NCBI GenBank assembly: GCA_019359315.1
Contig: JAHHHO010000040.1
Span: forward strand, 1 to 51,301
From: Myxacorys californica WJT36-NPBG1
GTDB lineage: Bacteria > Cyanobacteriota > Cyanobacteriia > Leptolyngbyales > Leptolyngbyaceae
Direction: 5' to 3'
Length of the DNA stretch: 51,301 bases
The notes under the pieces are model-generated. The model searched no databases. It had not been told where the DNA came from and saw only the letters and a program-made list of their open reading frames with translations. Position numbers and translations under genes: made by a program. This document shows, one piece after another, positions 1,958 through 48,972 of the stretch. Numbering within the stretch: the first letter of the stretch is position 1; every line of letters begins with the position of its first letter.

Positions 1958-3634
1958 CTACAGCAAGTTTGGGACTGAACACAAAGATGAATCATCTGCT
2001 AACGTAGCAAAGCGAGAAATACGAGTGTGAACATGAGGAATTCCCGTCAACCAAGATGTAATTCTTGTGATATTCATAGCAATACCCGTGAGAACATGTT
2101 GAAGATGTGTTTTCGCCAGCCCAATGTATCGAGTTCGACGCAATCCAAAGCATTCGATTCCTTGAGATAATGTCCCTTCTACCCCTGCCCGCTGGTGATA
2201 TTGCTGCTGCCATTCGAGAGTTTTCTGCTGGTGTCGCATCGAGTGCAGCAGTTGATGTGCCGCTTTCGGTCGCAAGGTCAAACTACGAGGCTCTGTTGCA
2301 CAACGGGTACAATGGGTTCGATACTGGCACAAGCGGCAATGCGTTCGGGAAAACTTGACATAAATTACTGCATTGCCCCATGCATCCTTCGTTGGAGTCC
2401 AACTCTTACTTTTTTTGCCTTGAGGACAAGTCACTTTTTTGGTATTCCAGTTAATGTGAAATTGGCTCAAATCATAGGCATCGGCTTCCTTTGCTTGCCA
2501 ACTGCCGTTCGGTCGCATCGGACCCATTAATTCGATGCCATCGGTTTTGCGGCTTGTCATGAATAATCCAGTATCAACATAACCTGCATCAACTAGATGT
2601 TCTCTAGGCAACAATCGTTTTGCTTTGAGAGCTTGGTGAATTGGTTCAGTCTGCTCAATGTCCGGTACATTCGCAGTGGACGTGATCACATGAGTGACTA
2701 GATGCATCGCGTCTGCATCGCAGGTTTCTGTGAGATGCACTTTATACCCCGTCCACGTGGTAGAGCGCTTGTTGCCATAGCGCGCCTCTGGGTCATACGG
2801 AGAGTTAGACCGTTTTCCTACAGGCGGTAAATCTTTAGCATCGCGCAGGCGCAAGTGACCGTTATCGACCCAAAACTGACCAATCCAGGTCTGACGCAAA
2901 TGGTCTACGGCTGGAATTTCTCGTAAGTACGGTGGGGCTGCTTCTGACCAAACCTGCTCTAACAAATCCATCCCATCAGCCCCGATCGTCTCGGCATAGG
3001 TCTGACGAGCTTCCTTGCCTTTGGGCAAGCGGTACTCTTCGACGGGTCGTCCATAGCGCTCGAACCAAGCGGAGGACACCCAGCCCTTCAGCCACTCGGG
3101 TTCGACTGTTGCAACCGCATTGAGGGCAGCTCTGAGCGTTTCCCCGATGCTCTCGAGTCGGTTCAACGTCCGAATGGCAGCCAGAACATGAGTTGAATCG
3201 GTACGCTGCTTGCCTCGCTCCTTAATCCATCCTTTTTGCTTGCATTGTTCCAACAACTGATCGAGCAGTCGTTGTTCGAGGTGACCTGCAATGATGCGAT
3301 TGCGAAACTCCGATAGCACCGAAAAATCAAAACCCGGGTCGCCTAAATCCAAACTCAACAGATACTTCCAATCAATGCGACTGCGAACCGCATCGGCAGC
3401 TTGGCGGTCAGTCAAATCCTCTAAAAACTGCATCACACAGATGAGAGCTAGCCGCCAGGGACTGAGCGCGGATTGTCCGTGAACTGAAAACAGGGGAGCA
3501 AATTCAACATCAGTGTAAATGGTGCCTAACTCATCACGCAGCAGAATGTAGCGGTTACCCTTCGGGAAAGCTTGACGAGCGACGCGAGCAGTGGCTTCAG
3601 GAATCGGGTCAATTGGACGAGGATGCAACGACAT
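1958..3634 (-). CDS. IS1182-family transposase
   Basis: This intact 558-residue DDE transposase catalyses cut-and-paste movement of its own element. The N-terminus (FPKGNRYILLRDELGTIY, QSALSPWRLALICVMQF) and the DUF772-like segment (DRQAADAVRSRIDWKYLL) are characteristic of IS1182. TDSTHVLAA, HLVDAGYVD and the C-terminal QRAGVEGTLSQGIECFG block supply the expected acidic residues. A CxxC...C cluster (CRLCQYRTHCTRC) lies near residue 430. The frame has no stop or shift, so it may be functional. I compared the flanks for terminal inverted repeats but could not fix the ends. Confidence 0.9.
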   Translation of the reverse strand: MSLHPRPIDPIPEATARVARQAFPKGNRYILLRDELGTIYTDVEFAPLFSVHGQSALSPWRLALICVMQFLEDLTDRQAADAVRSRIDWKYLLSLDLGDPGFDFSVLSEFRNRIIAGHLEQRLLDQLLEQCKQKGWIKERGKQRTDSTHVLAAIRTLNRLESIGETLRAALNAVATVEPEWLKGWVSSAWFERYGRPVEEYRLPKGKEARQTYAETIGADGMDLLEQVWSEAAPPYLREIPAVDHLRQTWIGQFWVDNGHLRLRDAKDLPPVGKRSNSPYDPEARYGNKRSTTWTGYKVHLTETCDADAMHLVTHVITSTANVPDIEQTEPIHQALKAKRLLPREHLVDAGYVDTGLFMTSRKTDGIELMGPMRPNGSWQAKEADAYDLSQFHINWNTKKVTCPQGKKSKSWTPTKDAWGNAVIYVKFSRTHCRLCQYRTHCTRCATEPRSLTLRPKAAHQLLHSMRHQQKTLEWQQQYHQRAGVEGTLSQGIECFGLRRTRYIGLAKTHLQHVLTGIAMNITRITSWLTGIPHVHTRISRFATLADDSSLCSVPNLL

Positions 3635-5785: not shown

Positions 5786-5984
5786 TTTGCTTTCCTTAGC
5801 TATACGTTGATGGCTGCAATGCTTGAGATAAATAGTATCAAACACATTTAAAGCAACAGTGACTATTTGGGAATTTCCGGAAAAATTCATTGAAAAATCA
5901 AAATTTGAAAGTTAAAGTAAGCAATTCATCGGATGCAATCCCGCTTAACTCTCTAAGTTTGAAAATCTGCTACCAACTGCTAAG

Positions 5985-6500
5985 TTATCGCCCGCGATTT
6001 GGAGTACGATTTCGCCTATTGAACGGGTTACGTTGGTAAGAATTGCTTTGCCATGGCGGCATTGAGTGCTCTGCTCCGTAGCATCGATCATCACTTCGTT
6101 CAGGTCTGGATACGCTTGCTGAAATTCTATCTATTTGCGAATCCGCCGTTTCAGTAGAGCCGGTGCTTGCGGATTCAAATGCTCTGCTAACAACGGTTAT
6201 AGCCGATGCATCAACAGAGCGAGATTCGACATATGTACTCCAAACATGCAACTTAAGAGTTCATACGTTAGGTATAGTCGGTAGTACATCAATGGTACCA
6301 GCAACTTGTCTTTGAAGCTCTCTAGCTTATGCTGTCCACCACCCACGACTCGTTGCGGAGCACGGCTAGTCAAACGTAATTGCTCTGATGCTTTCCAGAT
6401 TGGTTCCACTTCAGCAGCAAGTTGGTTCAACTCTTAAACGCTTAGTCCGGTGAACCGTTGGAACTTGATTGGCGTCTTCGCCAGTTTGAAGTTAAGTTCA
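5985..6500 (-). pseudogene. IS5-like transposase remnant
   Basis: Reading leftwards, the translation gives TPIKFQRFTGLS, a stop, then ELNQLAAEVEPIW and a helix-turn-helix region (KDKLLVPLMYYRLYLTYELL), another stop after LALLMHRL, then LLKRRIRK, another stop, then QQAYPDLNEVMIDATEQ. That last block carries the first catalytic Asp of IS5/DDE_Tnp_4 transposases. At least three in-frame stops and loss of the C-terminal half show that it is dead. It lies against the transposase end of the Tn3-family gene and may have removed that transposon's missing end. Confidence 0.75.
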
Positions 6501-6619: not shown

Positions 6620-9600
6620 CTATCCCAATTGGAAATTATTTACCTTATCTTGCATTGTAGGATTAATGGCGTATTTAGGTTCAGGGGGTGACAAGAGGCT
6701 TGGAAGCCAGAAGGAATGCCGGATAGCAGCGATTGCCTCTGGCTCCAGTGGGTAGCCTGCCTGCGCGAGCTCCTGGAGAATACGGCTCAGCTCAAAGACA
6801 TTGTAGAAAATCAGACAGTTGGCGATTAGATGGTTGTACTTGATGATCTTGCGTTGCTCCTCTCGATTATTGGTGGCGATTACCCCCTCGCCGCCAAACG
6901 ACAACCACTGAGCAAACCCATTAAACGCCTCACTCTTATTGGTGGCCGCATGGATGGTAGCGCGTAAAGCGGCATCCTGAATGTACTGCAACAGAAACCC
7001 GGTGCGAACGGCACAACCTAACGCATGAAATGCCTGATACAGCTTGTTATGGCTGCTGTTTGTGCCCAGCTTTCGTAAAATCGTTGAAGCGGCAATTTTA
7101 CCAGCCTTAATCGACAACGCCACCCGCAATAGATCGGGTAAGTGCGTCTCAATCAACTCCCAATGCACTGTTTCAGAGAGCAACCCGTCAATATGCAAGT
7201 AACGAGTAGCATGGGTGGGGCGGTAGAGCGTTAAGTCTTGCCAATTGCGCATGCGTGGCATCAGCCGAATGCTCAGCAAATACGTCAGCGCAAACACCGC
7301 GGCACTTTGGGCTTGAGTGTCTCCATGAATCGTATCCGGTTGAATCTCAGATGTATTTTTGAGCAAACCATCAAGTAGATAGACGGCTTCCCAGACCCCA
7401 CAGGGAATGAAATGGCTAAAGAGGGCGATGTACGTATCAGAGACATGATAGTACCCAATACCGCCATACCCGCCATAGCGAATGTGATACTCCGCCAGCA
7501 AGTTGTCCTCATAGATGTCCCACTTTGTGCCATCGACGGAGGCACGCTTGCCATCACCCCATAGTTTCGGCAGGCTAAAGCGGTTGTAGGCATTGATGAT
7601 GATGGCATTCGCGGACTGGAGCTTCTCTGGGTCAATGTGACGCTGGTGGGCATAGGCGACCTGTCTCCGGTCAAAGCCTTTCAGCGACCGAGCCGCTTGC
7701 GAGGGACCTAAATTACAGCCATAGCAGAATGTACTTGCCAGGTAACGTGCAGCGGGATTGTCCAGCTTCGTATCATGCCCAGACTTAGGTTTGAAGAACC
7801 GTGTCCAATGGAGCCAAAGTTCCGTGTCTGCCAGAACATCCAGCAAATTGATGGGCGTGATCCGTTGAGCAATCAGGGCTTTGAGTGTAGCTGCCCCTGG
7901 CACCACCTTTGCCTTCGGTTTACGAATCACTAGGCGATCCTGCTGGTAGTTCACCTCAGCATTCTGGGGAAAGCCCTGATCCGTTGCTTGAGCAGTGGTC
8001 TTCAACCATTGCTGGACATGTGTCACGAAAGCAGCAGGCTCAGTGGGCAAACCGATTTGCTTGCCATACTCTGTCACTGTTTCCTGGTATTCCTCCCAGG
8101 AGATGAGTTGCTGTCCGTAGTCGCCAAACTCGCCACTGCCCTCAATGTAAAGGTCTCCAGATTTCAGCCCCAGCAGCAGGTGCGAAAACACGCACACTTC
8201 CAATTGGCGGCGGTGAATGGTAGCTGGATGGGGTGTACGTTTGCGTTGTCCACACACCAAGTACCACCACTTCTGAGGCACCCAACCCAGCTCAAGTTGG
8301 GGCATGTGACGTTCCGCCTCGGTACCAGGATGTTCAAGCTGGACAACCGAAACTGTCGGATGACGACTACGCCGATGCTGCACCATAAACTGGATCGCTT
8401 CGAGCAGCGAGCGATCCTGAGTACTCGAACGCAGTGGCAGGATCTCCAGTAGCCGAAATAAAACGGTGCGTTGACTTTTATAAAAAGTTTGGAGGAGTGG
8501 AAAGTAGTTGTTACCAACATAAGCAAGATGGGCATCACAGGCTGCCAGTAGGGGTTGCCCCTGATTGCCAACGACCGTCTCAATCGCTGCAAACCGTTGA
8601 GCGATCTCACCGTCACTTTGAAACGCTAACACCACCTCTCGGAGCGTCGCGATCAATTCATCCGTGCGGGCTTGAGTCTCTTGACGCAGCACAGCTAACG
8701 CCTGTTTGCCCCGAGCATGCATCTGTTGGATTTGGCGGATGAACATCGCTGCTAAGTCATCCAGCGTTTGAGCATATTGAGCCTCAAGGAGCGCTACTGC
8801 CAGGGTGTACCGCTTCAGTGGACTCATTTGCTTCATGTGGGGTGCATCTAAGACCTTGGCTTCCGCTGCAAAATGCTTACGTTTGACTTCTGGCAACTGT
8901 TTGAGTGCAGTGGTGCCCAGTTGCAACTTTGCCAACCAACGTAAGCGTTCCACCAGCTTTTTGAGCTGGGTGATGGTTGGTTTGCTAGAGTCTCGCTTGA
9001 CCTCATGCCAGGGCGTTGTGCCCGTTTCTGCCTCGGCTTGAAACAGGCTATCGATCTGCTGGCGTTCGATGTCACTGAGGGACTGTGTAATTTTCTGATG
9101 GAATTGGCTTGTGATGGTGCTTCGGGCTTTGTGCGCGAGCCGCAGTAGCCGACTGAACGCTGGCAACTCAAACCGTTGCTGCACCAAGACTTCAAGCGCA
9201 ATGTTAATCAAATCAACCAGATCATGTTTGGTCATGGCAGCCGTTTCCATCGCTGCCACGGTAACTTGCTGAGCGATACCACTAAATGGTTGCAGTTGCA
9301 GATAGTCGCGAATGACAGCTAGATGCCGAATCTTGCTACCAGAACGGTCATACCTTGCCAGGTCGATAGACGCGGTCGCTACTTGAGCAGTGGCAGCAAT
9401 ATGTCGAGTAATTGTCGTTGGTACGCTGGCAAGGGGAAGACCATAACCCAGGCGTTGAAAAGTTTTCAGCAGAATCAGGAAGCCCAGTTTGGCACTACTG
9501 CCTTTTGTGGCTTGTTCTGCCAGACTCAATTCCTCAAGGGTTGGGGTGTAGATGGTTGCTAACTCTTTGTCTGTCACATTGTGCTTCAAACGGGGATACG

Positions 9601-9622
9601 CCATATCTTGAAGGCTAGGCAT
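6620..9622 (-). CDS. tnpA: Tn3-family transposase
   Basis: The 1000-residue product has the length and motifs of TnpA, which drives replicative transposition. It carries an N-terminal DNA-binding region (LPSLQDMAYPRLK-like start) and the C-terminal DDE core: SVDGTKWD (Asp near 697), IHGDTQAQS (Asp near 768) and ATNKSEAFN (Glu near 898), followed by LIANCLIFYNV, the family's typical end. The frame is intact. No resolvase gene adjoins it. One plausible terminal repeat is present at 9917-9954; the other end was not found. Confidence 0.93.
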   Translation of the reverse strand: MPSLQDMAYPRLKHNVTDKELATIYTPTLEELSLAEQATKGSSAKLGFLILLKTFQRLGYGLPLASVPTTITRHIAATAQVATASIDLARYDRSGSKIRHLAVIRDYLQLQPFSGIAQQVTVAAMETAAMTKHDLVDLINIALEVLVQQRFELPAFSRLLRLAHKARSTITSQFHQKITQSLSDIERQQIDSLFQAEAETGTTPWHEVKRDSSKPTITQLKKLVERLRWLAKLQLGTTALKQLPEVKRKHFAAEAKVLDAPHMKQMSPLKRYTLAVALLEAQYAQTLDDLAAMFIRQIQQMHARGKQALAVLRQETQARTDELIATLREVVLAFQSDGEIAQRFAAIETVVGNQGQPLLAACDAHLAYVGNNYFPLLQTFYKSQRTVLFRLLEILPLRSSTQDRSLLEAIQFMVQHRRSRHPTVSVVQLEHPGTEAERHMPQLELGWVPQKWWYLVCGQRKRTPHPATIHRRQLEVCVFSHLLLGLKSGDLYIEGSGEFGDYGQQLISWEEYQETVTEYGKQIGLPTEPAAFVTHVQQWLKTTAQATDQGFPQNAEVNYQQDRLVIRKPKAKVVPGAATLKALIAQRITPINLLDVLADTELWLHWTRFFKPKSGHDTKLDNPAARYLASTFCYGCNLGPSQAARSLKGFDRRQVAYAHQRHIDPEKLQSANAIIINAYNRFSLPKLWGDGKRASVDGTKWDIYEDNLLAEYHIRYGGYGGIGYYHVSDTYIALFSHFIPCGVWEAVYLLDGLLKNTSEIQPDTIHGDTQAQSAAVFALTYLLSIRLMPRMRNWQDLTLYRPTHATRYLHIDGLLSETVHWELIETHLPDLLRVALSIKAGKIAASTILRKLGTNSSHNKLYQAFHALGCAVRTGFLLQYIQDAALRATIHAATNKSEAFNGFAQWLSFGGEGVIATNNREEQRKIIKYNHLIANCLIFYNVFELSRILQELAQAGYPLEPEAIAAIRHSFWLPSLLSPPEPKYAINPTMQDKVNNFQLG

Positions 9623-26180: not shown

Positions 26181-26311
26181 TATGAGTTGGGGCAGCGTGA
26201 GGCTAGCAGCTGATTCTGAGCGCGACGCAACAACCCCAGCAAATCCCTGTGCGATTCGTCCTAGACCTTCTTGCACCTACCACGAGACAACAGTCGCGAT
26301 GAAGGCTAGCG

Positions 26312-26346
26312 AGTTCGTGGGAAATCCTACAGTTAAACCACGAACT
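26312..26346. repeat. TTCGTGGG hairpin family copy 3
   Basis: Arms AGTTCGTGG (26312-26320) and CCACGAACT (26338-26346) pair perfectly around a 17-base loop. Related to the copies at 22390-22424 and 22515-22545. Confidence 0.5.
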
Positions 26347-26393
26347 AAACTCGGGCATCCACGTAGTTAATGCGTCTGGGAGACGGATGGTCG

Positions 26394-28010
26394 TCACCCC
26401 CCGCCCTGCTCATGCAAGCCTCTAGCGGCAGCATGTTCGGGAAATAAGAGTGAGTCAGCCCCTTCGCTCGTTTTGCCTCCCCCGGCTCTAGACTGTCTGC
26501 TTCCCTGCTGCTCTTTAGCATCCTTCGGGAAGTAGTCGTTTGGGTTATTGTACTGCCTGGAATAGATGAAGCCCAACTTTCGGGCTACCGATGCCCAACC
26601 ACCATTGTCCGAAATAGCGCTGTTTAAATCAGTGCGTCCAATCTGCTTTAGTTCTTCATGAGTTGGTAGTACACCAGGATTACCTAGTTGTTCAGCTACA
26701 CGATCAATTTCTGCTCTTAGATTGTCCAGATTCTTCCAATATCCGCGTGGTTTTCTCCCGTAGGACAAACGCAGCTTCAATTTTTGAGCGACTGCCGGGA
26801 AACCGCCATGCATATTCATCGCTGCAGCAAGAGAACTCTCTCCTGCTTGAGTTAAGTCTTCTTTGGTTGGTATAACTCCACGTGTACCTTGGTGTTCAAT
26901 GAAAGTAAGTAGCTCATGCTCAACGTTTGAAAAATCATGCCAGTATCCTGAGCTTCTTTTGCTGAAACTCAGCTTGAGCTTCTCAGCGACAGTCTGAAAT
27001 CCTCCGTGATATTTGCAAATGGCTCTTAAAATATCTTGTCGATCGCTCTCTTTAAGCTCGGTAGCAGTAGGCATTAAACCGATTTTTTTACGTCTCTCAT
27101 TGAGTAAAATAATTTCACGTTTGAGGTTGTCAAAATCTTTCCAGTAACCTGAAGGTTTTCTTTCATGGGTTTCTCTTAAGCTATGTTGTTGAGCCAGTTG
27201 CACTAAACGCTCATCATTTAAACCTGCTTTCCTGATCCAGGAGCGAATTGTAACTGCTAGAACTCCTGTAAGATGACTGATTTCATTTGATGACATTCCT
27301 TCTCTATAGAGTCTTAAACACTTATCAATTTTCTCCTTAGAGTATCTTTTTTGCCGTCCTCCAATAGTTGCTTTTGTAATCCAGGATCGAAGTGTACCAA
27401 GATTTACTTGCATTGCCTGAGCAATTTGTGTACTAGTTTTCCCTGCTTTATAGAGTTCTAAGCATTGCTGCTTAAACTCATCAGAATATTTCCGGAGTCT
27501 AGAAACCCCAGCCTTGTAGACCCAGTCTGTGATCGTGTCTGCAGGTACTCCTGTTTCATTTTCAATATCTCTTGGTTCCCAACCATCAATGTACATCTGA
27601 ATGCAAGCTTGTTTTTCATCTTTTGAGTGTTTGGCTGAACGGTTTGATAAACCACCTTCACGTAGCCATTTTCTTAAAGCTCGTCTTAAGGGAATACCAT
27701 TAAGCTTTTGAATTTCTTGAATAGAGTAACCAACAGAGTACATTTCAATGCACTGATCCTTAACAGAGTCAGTATAGGGATCTGTATGGTGAATAGGAAG
27801 AATCTCTGCCAAATTCTTTTCTGATGATGGATCAAGCTGTTGCTGAACAAGCAATCCTAATTCTTTATAGTAGGGACATGTTTGGCACTTTGTATCTACG
27901 CCCGGTGTAGAACAATCACAGGCAGAACGCCATTGCGGCTTGACAGCTGATTCAATTTGAGAAAATTGCTCTGCTGCCTCACGGAAAATATCTATAGTAG
28001 ATTTATACAT
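26394..28010 (-). CDS. Four-HTH plus three-GYW-repeat DNA-binding protein
   Basis: The 538-aa product has a Cys cluster (C31, C33, C42, C45) that may bind zinc, then four transposase-like helix-turn-helix units at ~80-117, 127-165, 173-212 and 221-260 (for example EFKQQCLELYKAGKTSTQIA). Three ~60-residue repeats follow at ~288-346, 355-413 and 423-480, each starting GYW, with LPT/MPT in the middle and ending GGF..VA.KL. These resemble the repeats associated with homing endonucleases. There is no catalytic domain, and the tail is low-complexity. It starts 33 bp after the recombinase stop, on the same strand, suggesting a joint job in site recognition. Confidence 0.7.
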   Translation of the reverse strand: MYKSTIDIFREAAEQFSQIESAVKPQWRSACDCSTPGVDTKCQTCPYYKELGLLVQQQLDPSSEKNLAEILPIHHTDPYTDSVKDQCIEMYSVGYSIQEIQKLNGIPLRRALRKWLREGGLSNRSAKHSKDEKQACIQMYIDGWEPRDIENETGVPADTITDWVYKAGVSRLRKYSDEFKQQCLELYKAGKTSTQIAQAMQVNLGTLRSWITKATIGGRQKRYSKEKIDKCLRLYREGMSSNEISHLTGVLAVTIRSWIRKAGLNDERLVQLAQQHSLRETHERKPSGYWKDFDNLKREIILLNERRKKIGLMPTATELKESDRQDILRAICKYHGGFQTVAEKLKLSFSKRSSGYWHDFSNVEHELLTFIEHQGTRGVIPTKEDLTQAGESSLAAAMNMHGGFPAVAQKLKLRLSYGRKPRGYWKNLDNLRAEIDRVAEQLGNPGVLPTHEELKQIGRTDLNSAISDNGGWASVARKLGFIYSRQYNNPNDYFPKDAKEQQGSRQSRAGGGKTSEGADSLLFPEHAAARGLHEQGGG

Positions 28011-28043
28011 TTCCCAATTTTCTTACTTAACTATAAATTTGAC

Positions 28044-29516
28044 TCAAACCTTTAATTCAACAGAAATCATAGAATCTGAAATGAAAACACGCTCAACTAA
28101 TCTCATGTAAAATACTTCTCGATACTCTTGTGATAAGGAGTACCAAAAATTAATTTTTTGAGCTTCAGGATGCAGTAAAAATTGCCACGCAGTATTATTA
28201 GTTTTGTCACCTTCAGCGTCAATTTCTGCCAGAATCTTCTGTCGCTGAGCCAGTAGCTCTTTGTCAAATTCAAGGTCAGGAGCATTATCAATCCACTCAA
28301 GCTTCTTTCGGAGTTTGTTAAGCCTTTCCGAGGTCAGCTCTTTTTTCTGTATTTGGTGCTGCGTAATTTCTCGTGCTTTCTCAACCAAGCCGCTAATGAT
28401 AGCTTCGTCTATTTTTGAAAGAGATGTACAACGATGATTGTTACAGCTGATACCTGAATGCATACATGCATAATATTTACGTCCTTCTGAGCCTCCCTTA
28501 AGTTGACACAGAGATTTACATTCATTGCAGAAGACACGTTTAGTAAGATAAAATGTTGCACCTGGTTGCCCAAAACATTTAGAGTTGAATTCTAAAATTG
28601 GCTTTATTTCAGTTTCATAAAGTTCATCGGTAATAATTTTGTGGTCGGGATGGGTATCTCGATGAAGTTCCCATACTTCAGGATTATTATTTCTGCGTCT
28701 ATTTGTGTACTTTAAATAAGCCGTATGTCCACGAAGAATCGGATTCATAAGCCATGATTTTAAGCCTTCAGAAGAGCTGAAAATTGCTAATCCAGGTACA
28801 ATTGCAGGGTTTTTATGCTGCTCCATCGTATAGCGATGATGAAGATGGCTTAAAACAGTTCTATATTTTCTAATGCGCAGGAAGCAATCGACTAACTCTT
28901 GGGCAATATCAGCTTTACTTTGTCCTCGCAGCAAAAACTCCATTGGAGTTTTTGCATTAAAGTGACTGTAATTATCTGGACAGTCTTGAAGAGAGCAAAT
29001 GAATGGTCGGCGGTCAATAGTATATTGGTTGTTAACTATTTCATAGAATAAGGGAGGACGAGACCATGCTCCCTTCTTACTTCTACGGTAAGCGAACCCA
29101 TGCTTTATCCGCTCACGCAACATATTTCGCTCAAAAGCGGCTAATAAGACCATCATGTCAGCACTCATTTCACCCGAAGCTGTTTTTAAGTCTTGCTTAC
29201 CTTGATCAAGGAGATCAATTTCTACGTCACACTTACGAAGCAGTATTTTGAAGTACTCGTAGTCCAATTTGTTTCGGTAGAGTCGATCCCACCGAGTTGC
29301 TCTAACTAAACCTATTTTCCCAGCACAAATATCATCTATCAAACGGTTCAAATCCGGTCGAGCTGAATTGTCTCCAGAGTCGATATCAGAGTAAATCTCA
29401 TCTACACCTGCAGTTATCAGTCGGGCTTCTTGCTGCTCTAGAGCAGCACCTTTAGCCTGCTCCAACGTAGAAAGACGCAAGTAAGCAACCGCTTTTCGAC
29501 CATTTGGAGTTGGCAT
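28044..29516 (-). CDS. Large serine recombinase, XisF-like
   Basis: ATG at 29516 is preferred because MPTPNGRKAVAYLRLST is the family's normal start; the frame is open to 29573 without a ribosome binding site. The ~490-aa product has the catalytic Ser (S16 in YLRLS), the RWDRLYRN and ERNMLRERIKHG motifs of the resolvase core, a recombinase domain (NPILRGHTAYLKYTNRR), a zinc ribbon (FCNECKSLCQ...YYACMHSGISCNNHRC) and a coiled coil (KKELTSERLNKLRKKLEW). XisF-type enzymes excise developmental DNA elements in heterocystous cyanobacteria. No att sites were identified. Confidence 0.85.
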   Translation of the reverse strand: MPTPNGRKAVAYLRLSTLEQAKGAALEQQEARLITAGVDEIYSDIDSGDNSARPDLNRLIDDICAGKIGLVRATRWDRLYRNKLDYEYFKILLRKCDVEIDLLDQGKQDLKTASGEMSADMMVLLAAFERNMLRERIKHGFAYRRSKKGAWSRPPLFYEIVNNQYTIDRRPFICSLQDCPDNYSHFNAKTPMEFLLRGQSKADIAQELVDCFLRIRKYRTVLSHLHHRYTMEQHKNPAIVPGLAIFSSSEGLKSWLMNPILRGHTAYLKYTNRRRNNNPEVWELHRDTHPDHKIITDELYETEIKPILEFNSKCFGQPGATFYLTKRVFCNECKSLCQLKGGSEGRKYYACMHSGISCNNHRCTSLSKIDEAIISGLVEKAREITQHQIQKKELTSERLNKLRKKLEWIDNAPDLEFDKELLAQRQKILAEIDAEGDKTNNTAWQFLLHPEAQKINFWYSLSQEYREVFYMRLVERVFISDSMISVELKV

Positions 29517-29780
29517 AAATATTAATTCTGATACTGATGATACAAAGATACCATATACATGTAGCAATGTCATTAAAGTAACGTTGATACAAATGGGAAA
29601 TCAGAGCTGTTTGTTTTCTCATCAAAACGCTACATTTGGCTTATGGAATTATTTTCTAAGAATACGAATTTCGCCTTGCGTTGCATCGTAGAGCACGAGC
29701 AAAATGTGTAGGTGATATAAGTTTGAAAGTTTTTATGAGTAAAGAAAACGGTGCCTTTCGCCTCGATAGCCAGAAGCGGG

Positions 29781-30480
29781 GGTTGTGTCGCAAAAATGAT
29801 ACACAATTTTCTCTCATCCCGTCCTAAATGGCTGCCCCATCCCTGTTCAAATGGTGCCACGTTCTGCCCGACATCATCTTCCTGAAGGTGCGATGGTACT
29901 GTCGCTATCCCTCGAGCTACCGGGACTTGGAAGCAATGATGGCGGAGCGAGGACACGACTTCGACTCCTCGCTTCACGGATACGTGTCCGAAGTCGTTTG
30001 TCGAGTTCTGGCGAGAACTTCAACACCCAGCGATTGTTTGCCAATAGCATGGTGAAGCCATCGTAGAGTGGTTCGCTTCGCGAAGCTCTGCAGGACACAC
30101 GGTGGATAAGAATGCTGCCTATCCGGTCGCAATGAACAAGTTGAAAGCCGATGAAACGACCCTTGCAGTACCTGCGAAGCAGCGTGCCGAAGAGACGAAA
30201 CTCCGGCAGATTAAATACTTGAATAACGTGATTGAGCAGGATCACCAGAACATCAAACGGATTATAAAACCAATGATGAGGTTTAAGTCGTTCAATAGCG
30301 CAAGACGAACCTTGAGCGGAATTGAAGCCATGAATATGATTAGGAAAGGGCAAGTGAAAGAAGTCAATAAAGGGGAGAGTGTATCTCAAGCAAAGTTTGA
30401 AGAAATCTTCGGAATGAGTGCTTAAGACAATACGATTGACATAGTTCGTTTGTCACTCTAAAGGGTTTGCACACAACTGC
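29781..30480 (+). pseudogene. IS6-family element, central part lost
   Basis: GGTTGTGTCGCAAAAATG at 29781 and, on the other strand near 30480, CAGTTGTGTGCAAACCC are the decayed ends. The 5' coding part reads FKWCHVLPDIIFLKVRWYC, YPSSYRDLEAMMAERG. The 3' part reads MDKNAAYPVAMNKLKADET, LRQIKYLNNVIEQDHQNIKR, SFNSARRTLSGIEAMNMIRK. The middle, with the first catalytic Asp block, is missing or scrambled. Confidence 0.75.
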
Positions 30481-38110: not shown

Positions 38111-38248
38111 TAGCGGTATTCTGACGAAGGCAAAATGGAAGACTCGCGCTATGCCTAGGTTTTAAAATTCGTATTTAGCAACGGTGACAAAAGCTGCTCA
38201 CAGATGACCATTGACCAAGCGCACCGCAACCATCAACGCAAGCAGCAA

Positions 38249-38975
38249 GTTTCCATTCAACTGATTTCCTCAGCGAGTGGGGACTAGAAGGGTGTGTCGA
38301 ATTTATAAAATCACAGAGCTTTACTGTTTTCATTCAACTGATTTCCCCAGCGAGTGGGGACCGTGAGAAAGAGGGAGCGACCCAGAAACAGATTGACGAG
38401 TTTCCATTCAACTGATTTCCCCAGCGAGTGGGGACATGGCTCAACTCAGACTACCAGAATCTAATTGGGTTTCAGTGTTTCCATTCAACTGATTTCCCCA
38501 GCGAGTGGGGACTTTAACCCACACGATCTAAACTGGGTTGCTGTTCGTTTAGGTTTCCATTCAACTGATTTCCCCAGCGAGTGGGGACCCAATACGAGCG
38601 ATCGCGCGATCATCCAAAAATCTTTGGATTCATATTTCGAGTTTCCATTCAACTGATTTCCCCAGCGAGTGGGGACTGCAAGCGTTGGGATTATCCGCGC
38701 CGTTTGATTTTCCCGTTTCCATTCAACTGATTTCCCCAGCGAGTGGGGACGCGATGGCTACTGCGCTGCCGCCAGAACAGCAGCAGAGGGTTTCCATTCA
38801 ACTGATTTCCCCAGCGAGTGGGGACGTTAGGGTTACTCTAACAGATACCAAGAAATCAAAAGTGTTTCCATTCAACTGATTTCCCCAGCGAGTGGGGACA
38901 GCAGCTAAGACAAATCGAAGAAAACATCTTCTTCCTTCAGTTTCCATTCAACTGATTTCCCCAGCGAGTGGGGAC
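38249..38975 (-). CRISPR. CRISPR array, 10 repeats and 9 spacers
   Basis: 36-nt repeats start at 38249, 38326, 38400, 38477, 38553, 38641, 38715, 38790, 38864 and 38940. On the plus strand they begin GTTTCCATTCAACTG and end CAGCGAGTGGGGAC; on the minus strand they end GAATGGAAAC, the typical crRNA 5' handle, with a CCCC...GGGG hairpin. Spacers are 41, 38, 41, 40, 52, 38, 39, 38 and 40 nt from left to right. The two leftmost repeats each have one mismatch, which marks the trailer. The array is therefore read leftwards, like the cas operon, with the leader to the right. Confidence 0.97.
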
Positions 38976-39730
38976 TCCCCATACTTTAAAGCTAAATCCC
39001 ATAAGGCGTCCAGCCTGCATCTGCGAACCTCAGCCACAATCAAAGCCATAACCGTCAAATTCTTCCTTCTCAAAACAGCGAAAGCACCACCGCACAACGC
39101 ACCGAGGCTCAGAACCAAGGAATCGCACATCCGCAAGATTGTCCTCAGCCTCGCACCCCTAAACCACGATCGACCCCTGCCGCTTTGTCAACGGCACCCC
39201 GCCCCAAATCTCAACCTGTCCGACTGTATGCCCTGACATTGGATACATCCGCACACTATCTTGGGGTATCCTCACAACCTGTTTCAACCTCACCCTCAAG
39301 TCACGAAACTCAGCCGCAGTCAGAACACACTCAAAGACACTATATTACAGCACCTATGCGATGCGATCGCATAGGTGCTCAACTGTCACCAGAAGCGTAT
39401 TAATGATGCCGAAACCAGAATCCAGTGGGACAATCAGCCGCAGAACTAAAGCGATCTCTCCATTGCCAATACCAACACTGAAGCGATCGTTCTATTGCTA
39501 ATACTAATACCAACTAGAAAGTTACGTACGTAAGCAGCACATGAGGAAAAATACAAATGAGAATACGGTTAGAGTCCGGCGATCGCGCTTTTCAATTTTT
39601 GATGACTAGGAACAATGTATGCAACAACACGATGAAGAGGATGGTTGTTAACAGTTTCATGGGGAGAGCGATCGCCTAATCATTTGTCTATTTTTGAGGA
39701 AGCGAGGTCGGATGCTCTTCAGTAATGTTG
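38976..39730. other. CRISPR leader side, no gene seen
   Basis: About 755 bp between the array and the CARF-HEPN gene. Leftward transcription would start here. Notable are a perfect 12-bp-arm stem-loop (39351-39377) and a 12-bp palindrome TTACGTACGTAA (39522-39533). Short ORFs in this stretch have no ribosome binding site or recognisable product. Confidence 0.6.
39351..39377. terminator. Perfect 12-bp stem-loop containing a HIP1 core
   Basis: CACCTATGCGAT (39351-39362) pairs with 39366-39377 around a GCG loop. It lies 354 bp beyond the stop of the CARF-HEPN gene in the direction of transcription, so it may terminate the cas operon before the array leader. It lacks a U-run. Confidence 0.4.
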
Positions 39731-44552: not shown

Positions 44553-48823
<4,271 letters not shown>

Positions 48824-48972
48824 TACAACTGTAGCCAGAGTGCCCAAGTAAATCCTAAAGAAAACAAATATTCATTGCCTCTTTACTAAAAAAGCTGGGC
48901 ACTTTACTGGAAGGACATCTGAAGCGTTAGATAAATATAAAAACAATATTTTATTTTGCTTGACAATTTCTT

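Follow-up and report, generated by a model that had tools for sequence, protein, structure and literature searches.

A cysteine-core protein with exchangeable, putatively DNA-binding modules is encoded beside one group of XisF-like serine recombinases in cyanobacteria

The window analyzed here, a 51,301-nucleotide stretch of DNA from Myxacorys californica WJT36-NPBG1, carries two adjacent genes on its minus strand. A large serine recombinase resembling XisF (P0001, 490 aa, 28044..29516) comes first, and an open reading frame of 538 aa (P0002, 26394-28010), here called the partner, follows downstream after an intergenic gap of 33 bp (28011-28043). An initial sequence-only reading had described this arrangement, and it is confirmed by the coordinates and by Pfam matches. 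The recombinase frame is open and matches Resolvase (PF00239, 81 bits against a cut-off of 23.3) and the Recombinase domain (PF07508, 25.7 bits, cut-off 21.1) in a Pfam scan, and inspection of its sequence shows the context YLRLS...WDRLYR, whose Ser and Arg we take to be the catalytic residues. The zinc ribbon PF13408 scores 15.7 bits (cut-off 25.3), and residues C330, C333, C351, and C358 are invariant in an alignment of four recombinase sequences. The NCBIfam model NF041201 (recomb_XisF) matches residues 10-481 of 490 with 314.5 bits, which is below the curated cut-off of 375, and the protein is thus XisF-like rather than XisF by the NCBIfam standard. In a tree of 73 recombinases it falls into a subclade of seven rows, termed B, with support of 100/100.

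The homologous part of the partner spans residues 1-494 (26529..28010, minus strand) and is 49.6% identical to its closest relative, WP_015211581.1, whose gene follows that of the recombinase on plasmid pMIC7113.04 in Allocoleopsis franciscana PCC 7113. The last ~44 residues (26394..26528, minus strand) are read-through of the frame into unrelated GC-rich flank (GC ~0.55), as homology stops at residue 494 and residues 486-538 have a pLDDT under 50. A Cys core, CxC-x3-G-x4-CxxCPYY, at approximately residues 29-47 (27870..27926, minus strand) has four Cys and a Gly that are invariant in an alignment of seven partners, and probably represents a zinc-binding adaptor. It is followed by four HTH repeats (residues 79-265; 27216..27776, minus strand) at residues 79-121, 128-170, 175-217, and 222-265, and by three GYW repeats resembling PF18780 (residues 286-484; 26559..27155, minus strand) at residues 286-350, 352-416, and 419-484. 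The seven repeats proposed from sequence alone are therefore present, since every within-type pair scored beyond 500 shuffles (0/500 as high in 6/6 HTH pairs and in 3/3 GYW pairs). HTH and GYW repeats show no significant similarity to one another (12 pairs, the score being reached by 20 to 156 of the 200 shuffles). Several HTH Pfam families exceed their cut-offs in P0002, and a profile search whose query included these same repeats placed the GYW repeats at 26559-26750, 26763-26954, and 26961-27155; at E 1e-5, neither the same genome nor 18 relatives yielded further GYW repeats. In an AlphaFold2 model, units of three helices coincide with the HTH repeats and groups of four or five helices with the GYW repeats, while the overall arrangement is unreliable (mean pLDDT 70.6, pTM 0.24). 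Fold searches with both predicted models gave nothing with an E-value of 0.001 or lower, a nuclease domain is absent from the Pfam matches of P0002, and no partner match was present in a phage collection at E 1e-5. The HTH and InsA-like matches might suggest a transposase, but this reading was rejected, as no transposase catalytic domain appears among the Pfam matches.

Transposase remains adjoin the pair in the window. A degraded IS6-type transposase, below cut-off, lies at 29850-30425, and the flank with this IS6 piece has 25 matches in the same genome; Tn3 and IS1182 transposases above cut-offs are found at 6620-9622 and 1958-3634, respectively. The window also contains the Cmr2 gene of a III-B CRISPR system (45755-48847) and near-identical 36-38-nt repeats at 38241-38976 that are probably a CRISPR array, although the tandem repeat finder did not report them. 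No Rfam match was obtained in the window at gathering scores. The contig lacks a terminal overlap, so that circularity was rejected and the window is not claimed as a plasmid. The same genome contains another pair (L028, contig C89, 1797-4024), in which a 178-aa partner of the short type, termed A, is encoded by a gene that overlaps that of its recombinase by 4 bp; this pair adjoins a gene named ParA-like from its sequence.

Short direct repeats flanking the pair, for which the sequence-only reading had called for a search, did not emerge: a repeat search over 26300-30200 gave no family of at least 12 bp, the shortest length that the search would detect. Around the pair, neither an attachment site nor an excision product nor a DNA target was found, and searches for an empty site with each flank (38 genomes each) listed dispersed pieces, with both flanks together only in the window's own contig. 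On pMIC7113.04, GGTTATACA occurs in 8 exact copies and in 18 copies with up to one mismatch, against 7.97 expected, and 18 was reached by 1/100 shuffles. These copies are partly palindromic and lie around the third gene, at the 3' end of the partner, and inside a replication gene (L143 27689-28164, 43217-44199). Genome G129 has other repeats, likewise at its third gene. Neither set was assigned to the partner.

Relatives of the recombinase were drawn from a plasmid collection (five records from cyanobacteria, taken from among the top entries of 1466 listed), from one genome-contig scan (28 loci), and from genome searches, in which 13/291, 18/386, and 94/192 genomes had a recombinase match at the search thresholds. 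The partner motif was first noticed in the gene after the recombinase at the first plasmid loci, and it is present in 17 of the 28 contig-scan loci and absent in 11, two of which end with the contig and one of which is a fragment. The 73 distinct XisF-like recombinase frames of at least 380 aa from the chosen loci were placed on a tree, and partners were called by script as a C-x-C-x2-3-G-x3-6-C-x2-C motif on the same strand within 1 kb downstream; for four of the 50 negatives, less than 1 kb of sequence was available. A motif partner follows 23/23 recombinases in one group and 0/50 outside it, and partner presence amounts to one change on the tree, a value as low as which was reached in 0/500 label shuffles. 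As the motif was drawn from members of the group, this test shows restriction and completeness rather than discovery. The group has a branch support of 94/93, just below the program's 95/80 mark, on an unrooted tree in which the long rows L033 and L028/L032 were flagged as unsure. The tree omits several frame-broken or partial copies, namely L042, L059, L060, and those of G129; the motif is present in the first three and in 2/3 G129 copies, the third of which (C5) reaches the contig end. Also omitted are L046 and L055 (contig ends), L061 (a fragment), duplicate views of the same places, the viral-contig loci, where the motif is absent in the 5 scanned of 22 (L062-L066), and the recombinases of G014 (L006, L092) and G328 (L100), whose fetched stretches contain no motif. 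A partner is absent from much of the wider XisF family, and 2/30 loci fetched by NF041201 in one family had one.

The pairing was also approached from the partner side. A profile of 12 short partners searched against 192 genomes of one family gave, among the matches listed, 30 places with an E-value no higher than 8.5e-13. Of these, 23 were fetched, and a recombinase sequence lies upstream on the same strand in 22, some of them contig-cut or degraded; in one (L159) it is reduced to a 40-residue fragment, and the exception, L153, has no upstream recombinase. Of the seven places left unfetched, four immediately follow listed recombinases and a fifth forms the second half of a locus that was fetched. 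Most of the weaker matches listed span the zinc-ribbon part alone, with neither motif nor recombinase in 7/7 such loci fetched, and one (G455:C69, E 2.1e-11) spans the core part. When 386 genomes were searched with a B-type core profile, nine places were listed. Three of them are the window and two G129 copies, a fourth is an A-type partner (G350, E 2.1e-6), and the remaining five are small proteins that match weakly, which makes the B-type a rare one. These small proteins (L177-L179, L181, L182), one of which is encoded in the window's own genome (G000:C6), have a similar CxC-PG-CxxC core, and a crude pattern check saw no recombinase nearby. The linkage of the two genes, on which the sequence-only reading depends, thus recurs elsewhere when viewed from either gene, and the partner, judged by gene linkage only, accompanies one recombinase group and is specific to it. 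The two genes are separated by 47 bp or less, or overlap by 4 bp, in 18/20 pairs, the remaining two having wide gaps of 422 and 575 bp.

Some loci hold additional recombinase sequences. On plasmid B of T. variabilis (L031), the 5' end of the recombinase gene is present a second time as a truncated copy just upstream of the intact gene (5792-5949 and 5992-6149; 88.6% identity, seen against the twin locus L113). In some Nostocaceae, an A-type pair stands tail to tail with a second recombinase of another XisF clade (L047 8346-9890, L103, L044 12955-13455), and in L044 the pair is separated from the facing recombinase by an intervening stretch of approximately 4.6 kb that L047 and L084 lack. Nodosilinea sp. 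FACHB-131 (L052 2635-5520) has two tandem XisF-like recombinases 3 bp apart.

A comparison of the partners shows one core joined to different modules, whose types were assigned by visual inspection of the translated sequences and, for some partners, with the help of family models. By recombinase row, the core carries a zinc ribbon in 15, an HTH array in seven (three with GYW repeats), and another module in one. A-type partners are 108-178 aa long, with the zinc ribbon preceding the core; the Pfam InsA ribbon was found below cut-off in the three scanned (best 25.7 versus 26.1), and an NCBIfam IS1/IS1595 zinc domain above cut-off in the one scanned. B-type partners have the core followed by HTH repeats, two in L030 and four in the window and most others, and GYW repeats occur within this type in the window, L029, and L034 only. 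In the L033 partner, the core is followed by two mutually similar halves (2/1000 shuffles as high) that are perhaps winged helices. The A- and B-type cores match each other with an hhalign probability of 97% (E 8.3e-11, 31 columns), and partner type matches recombinase subclade without exception (A, 15 rows; B, 7 rows; each supported at 100/100). The sequence-only reading is supported in part: the partner is tied to this recombinase group, but what the family conserves is the small Cys core, CxC-x3-G-x4-CxxC, rather than the HTH or GYW arrays, and the GYW array is an elaboration. Recombinase and partner distances are correlated in the A-type (11 rows, r 0.92, 0/2000 permutations as high) and in the B-type (7 rows, r 0.55, 23/2000 permutations as high). 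Partners are under purifying selection, with a dN/dS of 0.03-0.27 in 9/9 pairs of relatives, not all of which are independent, and so are the recombinases in the seven pairs with both open.

The partner-linked recombinases also share a feature of their own. In 23/23 partner-linked recombinases, the stretch corresponding to residues 174-203 measures 28-31 residues (56 in L033), compared with 5-13 residues in 50/50 others, and the longer form contains an RPxNY-like pattern. This length comparison places an insertion at approximately residues 180-203 of P0001 (approximately 28908..28979, minus strand), which may be a docking loop for the partner. Insertion and partner apparently have one origin, and their association therefore counts as one evolutionary event, from which a predicted contact does not gain independent proof.

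We consider it most probable, at roughly 60%, that the partner serves the recombinase as a dedicated accessory protein and influences either the direction of recombination or the choice of site, as judged from comparisons of sequence. The pair would then constitute a two-gene site-specific recombination module of cyanobacteria, present on plasmids and on chromosome-sized contigs. The Cys core, probably with bound zinc, would most likely dock on the recombinase, perhaps at the insertion near residues 180-203, and the exchangeable DNA-binding modules fused to it, in the window copy four HTH and three GYW repeats, may hold DNA beside the crossover site. By binding there, the accessory protein would decide which sites are paired or which way the reaction runs. 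This explanation comes in two versions. In one, which takes up the directionality-factor idea of the sequence-only reading, the partner is strictly a recombination directionality factor that binds the zinc or coiled-coil domain and switches integration to excision, with the DNA modules secondary. Serine integrases pair their sites through these domains, and a published model (PMC3783163) puts such factors on the zinc domain and/or coiled coil, where they may act; the two named there, Bxb1 gp47 and phiC31 gp3, are dissimilar to one another in sequence. Pairing with one recombinase group and a core common to all partner types would suit this version, but up to seven DNA-binding-like repeats seem to exceed the needs of such a switch, and the sites were not found; we regard it as possible, though tentatively so. 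In the other version, which we view as somewhat doubtful, the partner is a site-targeting or synapsis subunit whose array reads long DNA beside the crossover and brings the recombinase to it, such that module exchange retargets the element. The variation of module type between subclades on one core is consistent with this, and the weak Foldseek neighbors include the CRISPR repeat-binding protein 2lvs, Pax-6, and Mos1 (E 0.4-0.7, not significant); against it, no recurrent target sequence was found near the pairs, and the repeats near two relatives lie mainly at the third gene.

Two further explanations assign the partner no part in the recombination reaction. HTH domains and zinc ribbons are DNA binders in many regulators, and their presence here, together with the same-strand adjacency of the two genes, could point to an operon regulator that represses or activates the recombinase promoter. 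We find this unlikely, as freer replacement or loss would be expected of a regulator, whereas the partner tracks one recombinase group with its own insertion. Alternatively, the two may be functionally unlinked backbone genes of one ancestral element that have traveled together. Five pairs are located on named plasmids and others in chromosome-sized contigs (e.g., L044, G350:C1), and DNA similarity extends well past the pair in some A-type loci (L039-L042, L044-L130, L048-L058), as hitch-hiking would predict. In other A-type loci (L031-L039, L038-L040, L045-L048), similarity starts near the recombinase and ends at the end of the partner, with little shared beyond the pair, and this, together with purifying selection on the partner and its retention by 23/23 recombinases in the tree set, makes mere hitch-hiking highly improbable.

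If the partner is indeed an accessory protein, the XisF-related group described here possesses a different dedicated partner, one with a recognizable core matched by a group-specific insertion in the recombinase, and insertion and core provide a concrete pair for the study of how a serine recombinase is steered. The exchanged modules form a natural series suited to asking whether a separate protein can take over site choice from the recombinase. A bolder proposal, that one docking core with swapped arrays (zinc ribbon, possible winged-helix pair, HTH, or HTH plus GYW) re-addresses the same recombinase, with target or direction set by the separate protein, is speculative and in our judgment would probably not hold.

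Comparison with known systems shows both likenesses and differences. The tandem HTH repeats resemble Cbp1, a CRISPR repeat-binding protein (NF040595, 75.1 bits against a cut-off of 140, best stretch residues 133-245), and this match, with the Cmr2 gene in the window, led us to consider CRISPR-repeat binding by the partner. It was rejected as the main reading because, unlike Cbp1, the relatives of the partner lie at recombinases, and the presence of Cmr2 near a Cbp1-like protein is probably a coincidence. The GYW repeats match HNH_repeat (PF18780), which is associated with homing endonucleases, at residues 431-481 (E 0.0069, 17.1 bits, cut-off 26). XisF, the excision recombinase of the fdxN element, resembles P0001 in that NF041201 aligns with nearly all of it, but the group of P0001 has an extra insertion and a downstream partner. 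The names XisH and XisI do not appear among the Pfam matches of P0002 (E up to 10) or of seven other partners (E up to 0.1), and as both families are presumably contained in Pfam, the identity of the partner with either was rejected. Excision of the fdxN element requires XisH and XisI in addition to XisF, in roles that are described as unclear and that may affect direction (PMC4874684). Among the open-licence papers listed on XisF, the fdxN element, XisH/XisI, and serine-recombinase accessory factors, no title or opening of an abstract describes a Cys-core partner. Like Bxb1 gp47 and phiC31 gp3, the partner is proposed to be an element-encoded accessory tied to one recombinase, and it differs from them in its conserved Cys core with exchangeable DNA-binding modules, a combination that, to our knowledge, occurs in no described directionality factor.
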